Of a stretch of DNA of 64,000 nt, positions 17,020 to 22,610 are shown one piece after another. Both the position numbers and the translations under genes were made by a program. Within the stretch, counting starts at the first letter, position 1; each line of letters starts with the position of its first letter. This DNA comes from Roseibium porphyridii (GTDB taxonomy: Bacteria; Pseudomonadota; Alphaproteobacteria; Rhizobiales; Stappiaceae). The stretch is from contig NZ_CP120863.1 of NCBI RefSeq assembly GCF_026191725.2, positions 5,002,001-5,066,000 on the forward strand, written 5' to 3'. The notes under the pieces were generated by a model, which saw nothing but the letters and a program-made list of their open reading frames with translations, had not been told where the DNA came from and did not search any database.

Positions 17020-17190
17020 AAGACATGTCATAAGCCCGACATCATCAAGAGAAGGGCTGGCGCCCTCGCCAACCTGCCGAACCGGGCAAGGTGGTCCCCG
17101 CAATAGGGATGCGGCTGGAAAGACCCTCACATCGGGTTAACCGGCAACCAAGCGGTTCAATAGCATGCGCCAGTCCTCCTCGGGCAACCG

Positions 17191-18091: not shown

Positions 18092-18313
18092 TCAAGCAAA
18101 ACCGGGGATCTCAATCACCGTCAGGATTGCGAGTGCCAACATTCCAGTGATGAACGCTGCCTTTGCACTGCCGATCAGGGATCGGCCCGCCGTGTCGAGC
18201 CGTGGCATCGGCAGGTCGCGCGAATCCAAATACATCGACAGCAACATCAGGGAAAAAACGGCGAACCAGACAACGACAAGCACCTCGGCAACGAGCACGA
18301 TTGCGATCAACAT
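18092..18313 (-). CDS. 73-residue two-helix membrane protein
   Basis: This small protein has two clear membrane segments, about residues 3-27 (IVLVAEVLVVVWFAVFSLML) and 50-68 (AFITGMLALAILTVIEI), joined by a polar loop SRDLPMPRLD. Its ATG lies inside the end of the haemoglobin gene (seven-base overlap), so translation is probably coupled. The function is unknown. The fixed position between haemoglobin and the 33-residue gene argues that it is a real member of the operon. Confidence 0.75.
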   Translation of the reverse strand: MLIAIVLVAEVLVVVWFAVFSLMLLSMYLDSRDLPMPRLDTAGRSLIGSAKAAFITGMLALAILTVIEIPGFA

Positions 18314-18795
18314 GATCCGATCCAGTCCTGTTTCGAGGTGAGTTCAGGTGGGGGCACTGCTCCGGCAAATCCAAAAGTCGCCAGCCACAGGCTTTGCGCG
18401 ATACGCTCTGCAACCGCGATGATTTCGTCAGCAAGGTCGGGCACGAACAGCTCGCGCACAACAGGGCGAAACACACCAAGCCACAAGGCATAGTCCGCAC
18501 TCACAAGTTCCTTTTGCTTGAGGTGAGCCGGTACAGGCTTTCCTTTGTAAGCGCCGTTCTTCATGAGAACAGACTGCCAGAATGCTTCCATTTTCGGCAG
18601 ATGCTCATCCCACTTTCCGTCCAACCGACTGTTGAAGATTTCGCCTAGTCGCGGATGCTCGCGAACGCAGCCATAGAATGTCTGGACCATCACGTGAATC
18701 GATTGTTCGTCCACGTGTTCATAACGTTGCAGGCGATCGCCCTTGTCGATCACGGGCGGTCTGTCGCGACGGCTAGAGGGTTTGCCGGTCTGCAT
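18307..18795 (-). CDS. Group III truncated haemoglobin
   Basis: The protein is about 162 residues, with the 2-over-2 globin of group III: a B-helix Tyr in VQTFYGCVREHPRLGEIF, the proximal His in GKPVPAHLKQKEL, and the G-helix Trp in ADYALWLGVF. Such haemoglobins bind O2 and NO and are often found under NO-responsive control. The start is the second of two adjacent ATGs, six bases after GGAG. An extra basic stretch of about 20 residues precedes the globin. The NsrR-type palindrome lies 23 bases upstream and nsrR is divergent. Confidence 0.9.
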   Translation of the reverse strand: MQTGKPSSRRDRPPVIDKGDRLQRYEHVDEQSIHVMVQTFYGCVREHPRLGEIFNSRLDGKWDEHLPKMEAFWQSVLMKNGAYKGKPVPAHLKQKELVSADYALWLGVFRPVVRELFVPDLADEIIAVAERIAQSLWLATFGFAGAVPPPELTSKQDWIGSC

Positions 18796-18817
18796 CATCT
18801 TCTCCAAACATTCATTT

Positions 18818-18829
18818 AAGATGCATCTT
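18818..18829. promoter_or_regulatory. NsrR-type operator palindrome
   Basis: AAGATGCATCTT is a perfect 12-bp palindrome flanked by TTT and TTTAAA, matching the AAGATGC half-site of NsrR boxes. It lies between the divergent haemoglobin and nsrR genes, 23 bases from the haemoglobin start. Confidence 0.75.
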
Positions 18830-18859
18830 TTAAATGACACAAGCTCATACTAAAATCAA

Positions 18860-18870
18860 CATCTGAGATG
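18860..18870. promoter_or_regulatory. Second AGATG dyad before nsrR
   Basis: CATCT-G-AGATG repeats the core half-site of the palindrome 31 bases away, 22 bases before the chosen nsrR start. It could be a weaker NsrR site serving autoregulation. Confidence 0.45.
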
Positions 18871-18891
18871 AATGTTTTACGGGAAGCTGCC

Positions 18892-19326
18892 ATGCGCCTC
18901 AGTCAGGCCAGTGATTTTGCCTTGAGAATACTCATGGCCACCGGACAGTCAGACAATCCGCAGACCGTCGAAAAGCTTGCCAAACAGCTGGGGCTGGCAA
19001 AATCGCATGTGATGAAGATCGTCGCCCACCTTGCAAAGGGCGGCTATCTGGAAACCACTCGCGGTCGTGGCGGTGGCATCAGGCTGGCAAAATCGCCGGA
19101 GGCAATCCGGCTTGGCGATGTCGTTCGGCTGATCGAGCCAGACCTTGGCGTGGTCGCCTGCCTGAAACCCGGGTCAACTGCAGCCTGCGCTTTCCTGCCA
19201 CGCTGCGCGTTGAAGAGTGCAATGGCACAGGCTGCAGAAGCATTTCTGGACAGCCTGAATGGACAGACCCTGGCTTCAATCCTCGCAGGGACACAGAAAG
19301 CAAGACTGTTGGACGCCACTGGCTAA
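18892..19326 (+). CDS. nsrR: Rrf2-family NO-sensing repressor NsrR
   Basis: This 144-residue protein begins MRLSQASDFALRILM and has an Rrf2 winged helix (VEKLAKQLGLAKSHVMKIV as helix-turn-helix, RGRGGGIRL as wing). Three cysteines at residues 90, 99 and 105 sit where IscR/NsrR proteins bind an iron-sulfur cluster. NsrR loses DNA binding when NO attacks the cluster. An upstream in-frame ATG at 18868 overlaps an operator-like dyad, so ATG 18892 is preferred. It is divergent from the truncated haemoglobin, its likely target, and its stop overlaps the convergent CRP-family gene by four bases. Confidence 0.88.
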   Translation: MRLSQASDFALRILMATGQSDNPQTVEKLAKQLGLAKSHVMKIVAHLAKGGYLETTRGRGGGIRLAKSPEAIRLGDVVRLIEPDLGVVACLKPGSTAACAFLPRCALKSAMAQAAEAFLDSLNGQTLASILAGTQKARLLDATG

Positions 19327-20012
19327 AGCGTTGAAGCCTGTTCGAGAAACTCGATCTGCTCAAGACAATAATAGCCAGAGATCCGGCTGATCGTTCCGGC
19401 CCGTTTCCAGTCATTGAGCACGCGGCTGACATTCTCGCGCGCAGCGCCGGCCATATTGGCGATGTCGGCCTGACTGAGCTTGTAGTGGATCAGCATTCGG
19501 CCGTCGTCGAGAGGTTTGCCGAAGGTTTCTGCCAATTGCAGCAGAGTTTGCGCAACCCTGCCGGGAAGCGGCAGGAACGAGCGTGCGGCCAAAACGTCAT
19601 TGGCGTGCCGTAGTCTCTTGCCGACAATTGACAGCATATGACGATAAACAGCCGGGTGCTCGTCCGAGAACCTTTGGAACGCCGCCTTGTCAATGAAGGC
19701 GAGTTGCGCCTCTTTCAAAGCGCTCACTGTCGCCGAGCGGGGCCTGCCATCCAGAAGCGCCAGTTCGCCGACAAGGTCGCCCGGCCCGAGAACGGCCAGC
19801 AATTGTTCGTCGCCCTCGACGGACAATAGCGACACCTTCAACGACCCTTCCAGCACGGCATAACAACCATTGCCCGGGTCGCCGTTTTCAAAAAGAATTG
19901 TTCCAGCAGCAATCTTCATGGGCCGTGCAAGCCGAGACAGCCCGACAGCCAATTCCGGATCCAGCCCCTCAAGTGAAAAGCTGTTCTTCAAAAAATCTTT
20001 AATTTCCGCCAC
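19323..20012 (-). CDS. CRP-family transcriptional regulator
   Basis: The protein is about 229 residues. The cyclic-nucleotide-binding domain contains GELALLDGRPRSAT (82-95), matching the phosphate-binding cassette of cAMP-binding CRP. The C-terminal winged helix has AGAARENVSRVL; RE-x-x-x-R at 192-197 equals the CRP residues that read TGTGA. No N-terminal cysteine cluster of FNR type is seen. GTG 20012 is chosen because the longer frame would run through a CRP-type palindrome at 20070-20085. The regulator may control itself and the divergent small transcript. Confidence 0.85.
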   Translation of the reverse strand: MAEIKDFLKNSFSLEGLDPELAVGLSRLARPMKIAAGTILFENGDPGNGCYAVLEGSLKVSLLSVEGDEQLLAVLGPGDLVGELALLDGRPRSATVSALKEAQLAFIDKAAFQRFSDEHPAVYRHMLSIVGKRLRHANDVLAARSFLPLPGRVAQTLLQLAETFGKPLDDGRMLIHYKLSQADIANMAGAARENVSRVLNDWKRAGTISRISGYYCLEQIEFLEQASTL

Positions 20013-20069
20013 ACCTACCCCCTGCCAACAGCGCTGCCGCGACGAACTTTTTTGGATCAGTCGCAATCC

Positions 20070-20085
20070 TGTGATGTTCATCACG
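20070..20085. promoter_or_regulatory. CRP-type binding site
   Basis: TGTGATGTTCATCACG has one mismatch to TGTGA-N6-TCACA. It is 58 bases upstream of the CRP-family start and its centre is about 41 bases before the start predicted for the plus-strand transcript. Confidence 0.65.
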
Positions 20086-20105
20086 TGCAATCAAGCAAAA
20101 TAACC

Positions 20106-20111
20106 CTATAT
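20106..20111 (+). promoter_or_regulatory. -10 box CTATAT for the candidate small RNA
   Basis: CTATAT matches the alphaproteobacterial -10 form. No -35 hexamer is visible 17 bases upstream, where the CRP-type site ends instead, as expected for an activator-dependent (class II) promoter. Confidence 0.4.
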
Positions 20112-20117
20112 CTAAAG

Positions 20118-20194
20118 TCATGGAAGCGGGGTCGCCCCTCCCCCCTTCCAGGCCTCCACGAAAAACGGCTCTGTTCCCCGCAGGGCCGTTTTTT
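20118..20194 (+). ncRNA. Candidate CRP-controlled small RNA
   Basis: Between the CRP-family gene and the ChbG-like gene, a short plus-strand unit has a -10 box, a 5' hairpin (TGGAAG 20121-20126 with CTTCCA 20145-20150, inner GGGG-TCG-CCCC), a single-stranded linker with CCTCC (20153-20157, complementary to a Shine-Dalgarno sequence) and a strong terminator. No reading frame is present. The terminator also fits the minus-strand gene, so the RNA is an inference. Confidence 0.4.
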
Positions 20195-20195
20195 C
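20162..20195. terminator. Bidirectional Rho-independent terminator
   Basis: AAAACGGCTCTG and CAGGGCCGTTTT form a 12-bp stem with one G-U pair and a 7-base loop. T runs stand on both strands. On the minus strand it lies about 16 bases after the ChbG-like stop, and on the plus strand it would end the candidate small RNA. Confidence 0.85.
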
Positions 20196-20210
20196 GTTGA
20201 AATAGCGATC

Positions 20211-21008
20211 CTAGTTCAAAAACACGTCCTTTTTGTCCAGAGTATGGAAAAACCTCGTACTGGCCAAAACCTCGTACTGACATTCCCTGATCGCGATTTT
20301 TTTTCGTGGCTCTTCGCGTCTCAGTCGATCATCGGCCCTGCCGGGAATTGCGGCGACAAAGCTGAGATCGCTCATGCCATCGAAGTGATTGTGCAAAAGA
20401 CGCTGCAGATTTTCGCGATCATCCGTTTGCGGCAAAGGTTCCGCTCTTGGCAAAAGCTTCATGTTGTGGGCCTTGGCAAGACGGGACAACCGCAGTGCCT
20501 TCAAACCCGGTGGAACGGGCGAAATCAAAAGAGGCGGTTTTTCAAAGTCCGCATGATCAACGGCCTTCAGAACAAGGCGTGCAATCGACATACTGGAAAG
20601 CAGACCCTCGCGAACGGCGATGAAGTCAGGCTGACGCTTCATCAACACGCTGTACCTTGCCAGTTGTGCCTTGGCTTCTTCCAGCAGTAGTTCATCTGGC
20701 ATCAGACGGGTCAAGGCGCGGAAATTCAGCTTTTCACGGCTAAACATCCTCTCACCGTAAACTTCCTGCATGCGCGAACTGACTGGTGCCACTCGATCCC
20801 CACTGAAGGCAATCGTTACCCCAAAAAGAACCCGGTTCCCGACTTTTTCAGCCGTTTCCTGCAGCGGACGAAACTCGCGGGGCCAAAGCTCTGTTGCGAC
20901 AAGTGCGCCGACAGCACTCAAGCGCCCCTTTTCGGCGAGTTCGCGCAGGGCGCGGTCAACCCCGAAAGCGAGACCATAATCCAAGGCACCAAGTGTTATT
21001 CGCTTCAT
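20211..21008 (-). CDS. ChbG/HpnK (YdjC)-like protein lacking the metal site
   Basis: This 265-residue protein has the fold outline of YdjC-family carbohydrate deacetylases: ITLGALDYGLAFGVDRAL at the N-terminus, PDFIAVREGLL in the middle and the family-like end IRECQYEVL. The usual metal and catalytic residues are replaced: NADDFG reads GALDYG, the GMH segment reads FGVTIA, DSHHHVH reads AVREGLL, and the later HP is AIP. It is therefore likely a non-hydrolysing homologue. It lies downstream of two membrane glycosyltransferase genes on the same strand, which implies a role with a lipid-linked sugar. Confidence 0.75.
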   Translation of the reverse strand: MKRITLGALDYGLAFGVDRALRELAEKGRLSAVGALVATELWPREFRPLQETAEKVGNRVLFGVTIAFSGDRVAPVSSRMQEVYGERMFSREKLNFRALTRLMPDELLLEEAKAQLARYSVLMKRQPDFIAVREGLLSSMSIARLVLKAVDHADFEKPPLLISPVPPGLKALRLSRLAKAHNMKLLPRAEPLPQTDDRENLQRLLHNHFDGMSDLSFVAAIPGRADDRLRREEPRKKIAIRECQYEVLASTRFFHTLDKKDVFLN

Positions 21009-21110
21009 CTAATTCCGGCGGGCAAATAGCAATTATTCAGCCACATCCCTGCGTCATTCGCCCGCGCAATGCAAGTCCGTTGTGAACTCAAGCGATTTGC
21101 CGCGCTTGTC

Positions 21111-22610
21111 CTATCTGTAACGGACCGGCTCCAAAACAGGTCCGGTCGGACCTTCAATCTTGTAAACGATCAACCGTTCCAAACGAACCCCCTCAACCAT
21201 GCGCTCCAGTTCTGCGACTTCTTCGACCTTTTCAAAGACTTTCTGAAGTTCATCTGCCTGGTTTCGGCGATCTTCGGTGACATAAAGGCCTGGTTTTTCC
21301 AGCAGAACTATGTCGGGTGGTGGCGTCATCAGATACCGCACACGTTCGGTCACCTGGAATACCGGCAACTTGTCTTTGAAAAGAAAGTCCAGTTGACCGT
21401 TCAGGCCGTAACTCGTTGTTGCAACAAAGGCGGCATCTTCCGCATCGGCAATCGCCTGGACCGAAGCACCAATTGCGGGCCACCCGCGCAATTGGAAAGT
21501 CGGATCCTTCCGCGCGAACTGTCCGGTGATCGGCTCAACCGCATGCAATTGAACGATCAACGCAACAACGATCCCCAAAAGGACCCCGACGCCCCCGACC
21601 CGTTGCCACACTCGTGTGCGCATTTTGACGTTAGCCACGAACACCGCCGCCATGATCGCAAAGGCGGGAAAAAGAGGCGCGGGCCAATTGGCCTGCACCC
21701 TTGCGTGCAAGGAGTGATAGAGCAGATAGAGCAGAAACGGAGCAACGCTCAGGAGCAGCAGTGAGGGCGCGCCATCTCTCGCTTTCAAGCCCTTCACCAT
21801 ATGGTAGGCGCCGAAGCCGGCGAGAATTGCAATCAATGGATTGAGCAGGCCGATCAGCGCGCCGAAAAACTCAAAGACATATTTTGCCGTGAAGCCGCCT
21901 GCACCCGCCCGGCCAAACTGCTTGTAGAAGCTTGCCCACTCGTGCGCATGATTCCAGTAAAGCACAGGAGCAAAACACAACAGTGCGATCAGTCCTCCGG
22001 CCCAAAGCTGCCAAGATCTCCACCATCGCCGTGCGTCCGGCACCCAGAGAAGCCAAAGCACAATGCCGGCACCCAGAAAGAGTACCGAGTATTTGGAAAG
22101 AAGGCCGCAGCCAGCCATCAGGCCGACCACCAGCCACCAGTTTGCGTTGTGAGAGCGACTAAGTTCGGCCAGTGCCCAAAGGCTCAGGCCCCAGAACAAG
22201 ACCGAAGGAGCGTCCGGCGTTGCCAGAATACCGCCGATGCCAACAAGCAGGCTGGTGTTGAGGAACAAGACCGCCCAGCCGGCGGCAGTGCGGTTGAACA
22301 AAATCGAGGTGGTGCGCCAAAGAGCAAGAGAACCGATGAGACCGGACAGGACCACCATGGCTCTGACTGCAAAAACCGTGTCACCGAACACCGCTTGTCC
22401 GATCGCGATCCACCAGCCGATCATCGGAGGGTGATCGAAATAGCTGAGCGCCGGATTGAGCCCCCAGATCCGGTAATAGGCTTCGTCCTCAACGAAATGG
22501 GCCTGTGATGCAGCGAACAGCTTCATGGCTGTCAGCAACGCAACGATAATCACCAGACCGGCCGGCCGCAGGTAAATCGGCTCGTTCCTTGTGTCCATCC
22601 GTGAAGTCAT
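21111..22610 (-). CDS. GT39/ArnT-like membrane glycosyltransferase
   Basis: The protein is about 499 residues with roughly ten to twelve membrane segments. The first periplasmic loop FVEDEAYYRIWG and YFDHPPMIGWW is the acidic catalytic signature of the PMT/ArnT superfamily. Such enzymes move a sugar from a polyprenyl phosphate donor to lipid A or another periplasmic acceptor. ATG 22610 is 11 bases after the stop of the polyprenyl-phosphate glycosyltransferase gene, which should make its donor. A longer frame extends into that gene and is not used. Confidence 0.9.
   Translation of the reverse strand: MTSRMDTRNEPIYLRPAGLVIIVALLTAMKLFAASQAHFVEDEAYYRIWGLNPALSYFDHPPMIGWWIAIGQAVFGDTVFAVRAMVVLSGLIGSLALWRTTSILFNRTAAGWAVLFLNTSLLVGIGGILATPDAPSVLFWGLSLWALAELSRSHNANWWLVVGLMAGCGLLSKYSVLFLGAGIVLWLLWVPDARRWWRSWQLWAGGLIALLCFAPVLYWNHAHEWASFYKQFGRAGAGGFTAKYVFEFFGALIGLLNPLIAILAGFGAYHMVKGLKARDGAPSLLLLSVAPFLLYLLYHSLHARVQANWPAPLFPAFAIMAAVFVANVKMRTRVWQRVGGVGVLLGIVVALIVQLHAVEPITGQFARKDPTFQLRGWPAIGASVQAIADAEDAAFVATTSYGLNGQLDFLFKDKLPVFQVTERVRYLMTPPPDIVLLEKPGLYVTEDRRNQADELQKVFEKVEEVAELERMVEGVRLERLIVYKIEGPTGPVLEPVRYR

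Follow-up and report, generated by a model that had tools for sequence, protein, structure and literature searches.

The locus lies in a window of 64,000 nucleotides of the Roseibium porphyridii genome, this being the whole stretch of DNA that was analysed and to which all coordinates refer. It comprises a predicted small RNA (sRNA) gene of 78 nt on the plus strand (20119..20196; from the fold and covariance model R1, both ends predicted), a CRP/FNR-family regulator gene that diverges from it on the minus strand (19323..20012, protein P0001, here crp; putative GTG start at 20012), and a convergent minus-strand gene for a YdjC-like protein (20211..21008, PF04794), which we take to be hpnK. P0001 combines a cyclic nucleotide-binding domain with a Crp-type helix-turn-helix (PF00027, PF13545, PF00325). 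In sequence, the solved proteins closest to it belong to the CRP/FNR family, among them 3d0s and 4byy, presumably Rv3676 and GlxR; the cAMP-binding protein 7pza comes next, and E. coli CRP further down. Also next to the crp-like gene are a globin-like frame (18307-18840, minus strand; recognised by eye, no Pfam match) and, divergent from it, an Rrf2-family regulator (18868-19326, plus strand) that is nearest to the NsrR and RirA models with scores below their cut-offs. A SAM-I/IV riboswitch scores above the Rfam cut-off at 17037-17161 (plus strand), and riboswitches of this type are also found near the sRNA in three other loci (L065, L127 and L040).

Promoter and predicted RNA

The CRP-type operator TGTGATGTTCATCACG (20070..20085, plus strand) is an exact match to the pattern TGTGAN6TCACG, and its centre, 20077.5, falls at -41.5 from the predicted start. 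A pattern scan of the 64-kb window returns this single exact match, with an expectation of about 0.1 per window as estimated from the ten fixed bases. When up to two mismatches are allowed, 67 matches are found versus 64.06 expected, which is no enrichment, so the weight of the site comes from its exactness and its conservation. The site is followed by an extension and spacer (20086..20104, plus strand), with GTGC in most rows of the genus and no recognisable -35 hexamer, and by the -10 box CTATAT (20106..20111, plus strand); the start at 20119 is a predicted position, 7-8 bases after this box. A sigma-70 scan of 19000-21500 gives 0 promoters against 0.5 expected and no -35/-10 pair, a result that fits class II activation of a promoter lacking a -35 hexamer and counts as weak evidence for it. 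The site, the box with a start about 41 bases from the site centre, and the missing -35 element are thus as the preliminary description of this DNA had given them, and a site centred at -41.5 from the predicted start together with an absent -35 hexamer is the arrangement of a CRP class II promoter.

Folding of the 78 nt gives -37.7 kcal/mol and consists of a 5' hairpin, an open GGCCUCCA and a terminator, bearing out the earlier view of about 77 bases with a 5' hairpin, a free CCTCC and a strong terminator. The 5' hairpin (20122..20149, plus strand) has the form GGAAG-C-GGGG...CCCC-C-CUUCC with a C-rich loop. The anti-Shine-Dalgarno (anti-SD) linker AGGCCUCCAC (20150..20159, plus strand), which contains CCUCC at 20153-20157, is open in the fold from 20119, and its majority sequence in the genus is GACCUCCACG. 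The intrinsic terminator (20160..20196, plus strand) carries its U run on the plus side, is paired in 100% of alignment cells and shows two-sided changes in 4 of its 14 pairs; a simple terminator scanner does not list it on the plus strand, and folding shows it clearly. It is near-symmetrical, and the A run might double as part of a terminator for the minus strand. Three C residues of the terminator loop (20176-20178) are invariant in all 30 genus rows, and a C run is seen by eye in the terminator loop of other genera too. Measured to the T run in 40 genomes, the length of the RNA is 77 in 21, 78 in eight, 76 in four, 74, 73 and 71 in two each, and 79 in one. A predicted promoter of its own, a compact, structured, non-coding RNA, an intrinsic terminator and conservation are the general characters of a trans-acting sRNA, and all are found at this locus.

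Conservation in the genus and the family

The segment is found by a DNA search with 206 bases in 41 of the 45 genus genomes. Model R1, built from 30 distinct genus sequences, matches at E up to 0.001 in 49 of 87 family genomes, comprising 42 of the 45 within the genus, as sought by the covariance search that had been proposed for related genomes, and 7 of the 42 outside it. The three genus genomes that R1 misses carry a strongly diverged version (G001, locus L048), no crp ortholog that could be found (G019), or a crp gene without the CRP-type site (G029). Three further R1 matches in the window's own genome, considered as paralogs, were rejected (19.9, 18.3 and 17.7 bits: one segment that by eye follows a tRNA-like stretch, one weak fold and one antisense match to the sRNA terminator), as were second matches in G018 and G026, which resemble ordinary terminators.

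The promoter geometry is fixed across the genus. TGTGAN6TCAC is present at 43 of 44 crp-upstream loci, and 41 of these 43 have a -10 element at one offset, the hexamer starting 36 bases after the first base of the site (CTATAT in 37, CTACAT in 3, CCATAT in 1; the remaining two read CTAGGG and CCAGAT). Over the same genus the distance from the site to crp ranges from 39 to 278 bases. The -10 offset is constant while the distance to crp drifts, which assigns the site to the plus-strand promoter; a site kept mainly for crp would be expected to have kept its spacing to crp. A pattern scan of named genomes gives 31 places, namely 19 in Roseibium, 7 in Labrenzia, 2 in Pannonibacter, 1 in Stappia and one each in "Alphaproteobacteria bacterium AO1-B" and a Lachnospiraceae MAG; a gap of 8-22 bases was allowed, yet the length is 42 bases in 30 of the 31, and the Lachnospiraceae place is doubtful since it measures 44.

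Mean identity to the window was calculated from 38 loci of the genus, namely L003-L041 except L016, with the window's own locus and those of the same species excluded. The -10 stretch (20105-20111) reaches 98%, the highest value among the stretches compared, and the RNA 90% (hairpin 89%, linker 81%, terminator 94%); the CRP site has 87%, its free middle bases included, and the spacer 79%. Both flanks are less conserved than this block, which runs from the CRP-type site through the terminator: the first crp codons have 74%, the crp leader 66%, the stretch after the terminator 60% and the hpnK end 71%. In the genus alignment none of the 9 pairs of the 5' hairpin shows two-sided changes, in part because structure did not guide the alignment of the divergent rows. 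For the whole structure, 20 cells with a two-sided change, all in the terminator, are counted versus 6.9 in shuffles; this count, the percentage paired and the covariation score lie above all 500 shuffles, and the number of pairs with a two-sided change and of further pair types shows no excess over them. The preliminary description had named loss of the hairpin, the -10 box and the CRP site in relatives as a finding that would speak against it; the opposite is seen, all three being conserved in the genus.

The same holds in other genera of the family, where the hairpin persists with replaced stems alongside the -10 box and the site. Upstream of crp, site, -10, hairpin and terminator follow one another in this order in g4 (Pannonibacter L065 and L067, and L138), in g5 (L127) and in 7 of the 8 g7 loci read (L142-L148), out of 14 g7 genomes; the eighth, L139, has the CRP-type site and no -10 at that offset. 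All three g3 genomes (L141, L158, L159) have the site, a -10 that is poor by eye and is rejected by a stricter -10 test, the hairpin and the terminator, and L157 (g4) has an sRNA-like segment without a CRP-type site. No clear sRNA is seen upstream of the crp orthologs of g2 (3 of 3 genomes) or of the 3 genomes read among the 16 of g6. Model matches outside the genus fall at the crp locus in G056, G075 and G084, about 450 bases upstream of crp without clear sRNA anatomy in G045, and elsewhere in G074, G078 and G080, for which a crp-upstream match does appear when less sequence is searched (L144, L142 and L148). R1 scores in g3, g4 and g7 are 25.9-34.0 bits (20.5 in L141, terminator part only) and antisense terminator matches in the same search reach 25.4; these scores are weak and at their low end near antisense, so position and anatomy carry the weight there.

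The replaced stems remain self-complementary: GGAAG/CUUCC in Roseibium becomes GGGAAGC/GCUUCCC in Pannonibacter and GACACCG/CGGUGUC in g3, and the g7 stems are GGCGCUGC/GCAGCGCC and GCCGGUCGC/GCGACCGGC. For each of the 29 rows folded, the 5' hairpin falls under the mean of the shuffles, with z between -0.8 and -6.2; these values favour the claim in that the hairpins were taken from the best fold. Most Roseibium carry the anti-SD word (GACCUCC, GACCUC or CCUCC) in the linker, and Pannonibacter and g7 have it in the loop; two species of Roseibium (G013, G044) lack it in the linker and show GACCUCCA in the hairpin loop. The word is partly paired in L001, L007 and L012 when two more 5' bases are folded, and in the best folds of L039, L045, L048 and L157.

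A strong crp match occurs in 45 genomes, 36 of them in other families of the order; 21 of these crp loci were read, none with the sRNA arrangement. The evidence to date makes the sRNA a Stappiaceae feature, and crp orthologs also occur where it is absent or unclear (G029, g2, g6 and the 21 other-family loci). In five f22 loci (L166, L169, L170, L171, L172), TGTGN8CACA-like sites are seen by eye upstream of the crp ortholog; they precede a divergent small frame at the place that the sRNA holds in Stappiaceae. Away from crp, two g7 genomes (G074 and G080; L131, L132) carry a segment GACCGACCUCCCUUGA ahead of a strong terminator, which may be a further anti-SD sRNA in g7; L131 has no Rfam match at the cut-off.

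Activator, mode of action and candidate target

With the hairpin, the -10 box and the site conserved beside crp in much of the family, the suggestion of a new regulator-linked sRNA gains support, and 20119-20196 on the plus strand is almost certainly a real and conserved sRNA gene. The analysis establishes the sequence and its conservation, the fixed promoter geometry, a hairpin that outlasts replacement of its stem and the non-coding character of the segment, while transcription, the identity and ligand of the activator, the mode of action and the target are inferred. In the proposed mechanism, a CRP protein of the cyclic-nucleotide type, for which the divergent neighbour P0001 is the likeliest candidate, would bind at -41.5 and activate the -35-less promoter in class II style. 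The product would be a stand-alone RNA of about 78 nt, made up of the 5' hairpin, a pyrimidine-rich anti-SD stretch (GACCUCCA-like) and the intrinsic terminator, whose CCUCC stretch may pair with the ribosome-binding sites of selected mRNAs and thereby block their translation, the flbT mRNA being the best candidate. Taken whole, as a Stappiaceae trans-acting sRNA that is activated by CRP in class II fashion and occludes ribosome-binding sites, with flbT as best candidate, this reading appears to us quite probable.

Class II control by the neighbouring regulator is likely. All 66 loci that could be read, out of 67 in Stappiaceae (two genomes counted twice), have the recognition helix RENVSR, whose R, E and R presumably read TGTGA as they do in E. 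coli CRP; this is in line with the statement that the regulator keeps the CRP residues for TGTGA. The GELALL...RSATV cassette and the recognition helix are strongly conserved, the exact cassette GELALLDGRPRSATV occurring in 48 of the 67 loci. In each of ten relatives there are between 3 and 10 matches of CRP/FNR type, many to the nucleotide-binding domain only, so that the linked P0001 is the likely rather than the certain activator. That another TGTGA-reading CRP/FNR protein activates a real sRNA, with the linked gene as a passenger, draws on these further matches and is unlikely; against it, the linkage is kept in the family loci read, RENVSR is retained throughout, and a family that lacks the sRNA has, as judged by eye, CRP-like sites ahead of the same crp ortholog. 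A genome scan for the site and -10 geometry with a gap of 20-22 bases finds 3 places, the sRNA promoter included, versus 0 in the reversed control; as a route to a CRP regulon it was set aside, the two further places leading to no clear gene assignment.

Anti-SD action is probable as well. The other possibility for a real sRNA is that it serves as a sponge or a protein-binding RNA, or acts on other sRNAs, with the C-rich terminator loop or the hairpin as the active part and no blocking of SD sequences; we regard this as improbable. It has an alphaproteobacterial precedent in CrfA, a sponge of the anti-SD sRNA SisA (PMC12559287), and it would suit the terminator-loop C residues that do not vary in the 30-row alignment. 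However, what is kept is an anti-SD word, such as AbcR, ar14 and ar8 RNAs also have (PMC7143759 and PMC12559287), and it survives the move from linker to loop.

Targets of SD blocking were sought with the pattern GTGGAGGY-N(2-9)-ATG in six genus genomes with a reversed control. The excess over the control is only modest: the own genome has 15 places versus 9 reversed, and the matches listed number 47/24 in G002, 30/14 in G036, 23/19 in G025, 27/17 in G033 and 42/26 in G003 (pattern/reversed). Four of the 15 own-genome places open a frame of more than 150 codons (L188, L191, L194, L196). GTGGAGGTCACAGAATG is the start of flbT (PF07378), which lies downstream of an apparent flagellin gene end (by eye); the same start is among the matches listed in G002, G003, G033 and G025 and is also present in G036. 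Tracing into other species covered flbT alone, so other shared targets may be missed.

The gene is found in 44 of the 45 genus genomes. Contiguous Watson-Crick pairing between its leader and the linker of the sRNA in the same genome is at least 8 in 35 of 40 and at least 10 in 19 of 40; in the window's species it is 7, or 10 with G-U, weaker than in most others. Scored on 51 genes of the window that were called crudely, with the best start kept out of at most six per gene, the consensus linker gives -13.0 +/- 2.4 kcal/mol with a best value of -18.0, and on flbT -20.3 to -30.6 in four genomes. The window's own linker has a gene mean of -15.2 kcal/mol (best -25.3), among which its own flbT at -18.5 is not outstanding, and the crp leader at -15.7 is nothing outstanding either. 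Of the 40 genomes whose sRNA is ordinary, 31 have GTGGAGGTC, and none of the 4 others does; among these, G001 and G012 are strongly diverged, G019 has no crp ortholog that was found and G029 has no site. Such covariation between sRNA and flbT is no more than suggestive, as these four are also divergent lineages. By eye, one pair is lost without repair in G004, G043, G015, G028, G011 and G023. The flagellin regulator flbT is the best candidate found, and a tentative one.

In Caulobacter and Brucella, FlbT has effects of opposite sign on flagellin mRNA (PMC4347634), and the direction of any effect of the sRNA is therefore unpredictable. A further, rather doubtful conjecture is that an ancestral operator upstream of crp became the class II promoter of an sRNA whose stems turn over under a retained anti-SD word, and that flbT shut-off is among its jobs, so that the CRP signal controls flagellin. 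If true, this control would be exerted through an RNA that acts on another post-transcriptional regulator, and the flbT candidate would tie cyclic-nucleotide signalling to flagellin synthesis. The stem swap under a constant anti-SD word and the linker-to-loop move in two species form a natural record of what matters in RNAs of this sort.

It is very unlikely that the segment holds nothing beyond the minus-strand terminator of hpnK and an autoregulatory operator of crp, with no plus-strand RNA. The near-symmetry of the terminator invites such a view, as do the end of hpnK 15 bases beyond it, the convergence of hpnK in 54 of 54 loci where it could be placed (adjacent in 52), the antisense matches of the terminator half, and the sites upstream of crp in the five f22 loci without an sRNA. 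It is nevertheless rejected on the promoter geometry, a plus-oriented -10 at a fixed offset from a site whose distance to crp is not conserved, and on the extra 5' hairpin and CCUCC linker, which are superfluous for a terminator; moreover, the segment is kept in L016 and L033, where about 1.0-1.4 kb separate its start from hpnK.

The earlier statement that the segment has no reading frame needs amending to the extent that an ATG at 20120 (+2) opens a frame of 26 codons in the window, and it holds in that this frame is unconserved and the sequence non-coding. Over the 30 distinct genus sequences, read up to 80 bases beyond the RNA, the frame runs for 10 codons in some and for 26 to at least 50 in others; lacking a common end, and with RNA lengths that shift by single bases, it is not conserved. 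A small leaderless peptide starting from this ATG, in whose favour ATGGAAGC is conserved in most genus rows, can accordingly be dismissed, the ATG being absent in Pannonibacter and g7 besides.

Comparison with known RNAs and regulator-linked systems

No Rfam family is found at the sRNA locus at the cut-off; below it the best scores are those of RefA9 on the minus strand (27.5 versus 49 bits), RNAI (20.8 versus 47) and RsaE (17.8 versus 79). Membership of ar14 (RF02344) was rejected with a covariance score of 16.1 bits against a cut-off of 58.8, a weak score that means little alone, since unrelated families outscore it below the cut-off. In a genome search above the Rfam cut-off, two true ar14 genes (G000:C1:3373892-3374017 and 3374446-3374558, L202) score 61.7 and 59.7 bits, and the sRNA locus is not among the matches. 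The ar14 family (NfeR1 of Sinorhizobium meliloti) resembles the present RNA in its hypervariable stems and unpaired anti-SD motifs (PMC7143759), but differs in having three hairpins, each with an anti-SD loop, whereas the genus has two, plus the CRP-type promoter. The alphaR8 family (MmgR, SisA-D) is likewise a matter of short RNAs with an anti-SD-type word: MmgR measures 77 nt and the family core is a 10-mer of this type (PMC7143759 and PMC12559287), and the usual neighbour of the family's genes is one for a putative N-formylglutamate amidohydrolase. Compared by this description, the present sRNA differs in adjoining crp-like and YdjC-like genes. CcsR1 (RF02791), going by its Rfam name a CCUCCUCCC-motif RNA and similar in that respect, was rejected at 11.6 bits against a cut-off of 65.3.

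In oxyR-oxyS, gcvA-gcvB and sgrR-sgrS, a regulator gene diverges from the sRNA that it activates, as would crp here, but these pairs involve other regulator families, enterobacteria and unrelated RNAs. Spot 42 and CyaR are sRNAs controlled by Crp, which reportedly also regulates sRNAs in Yersinia (PMC4376681); they too are under a CRP-type regulator and are unrelated in sequence, and we know of none among them that adjoins crp. Literature searched by titles and the starts of abstracts, a range that leaves subscription papers and preprints outside, contains no account of this RNA. The sRNA is a new family of a general type, the trans-acting sRNA, that is already known. To the sRNA families of Alphaproteobacteria it would add one whose regulator is named by its neighbourhood, and it would offer a ready system for studying how CRP-type signals reach translation outside the enterobacteria.
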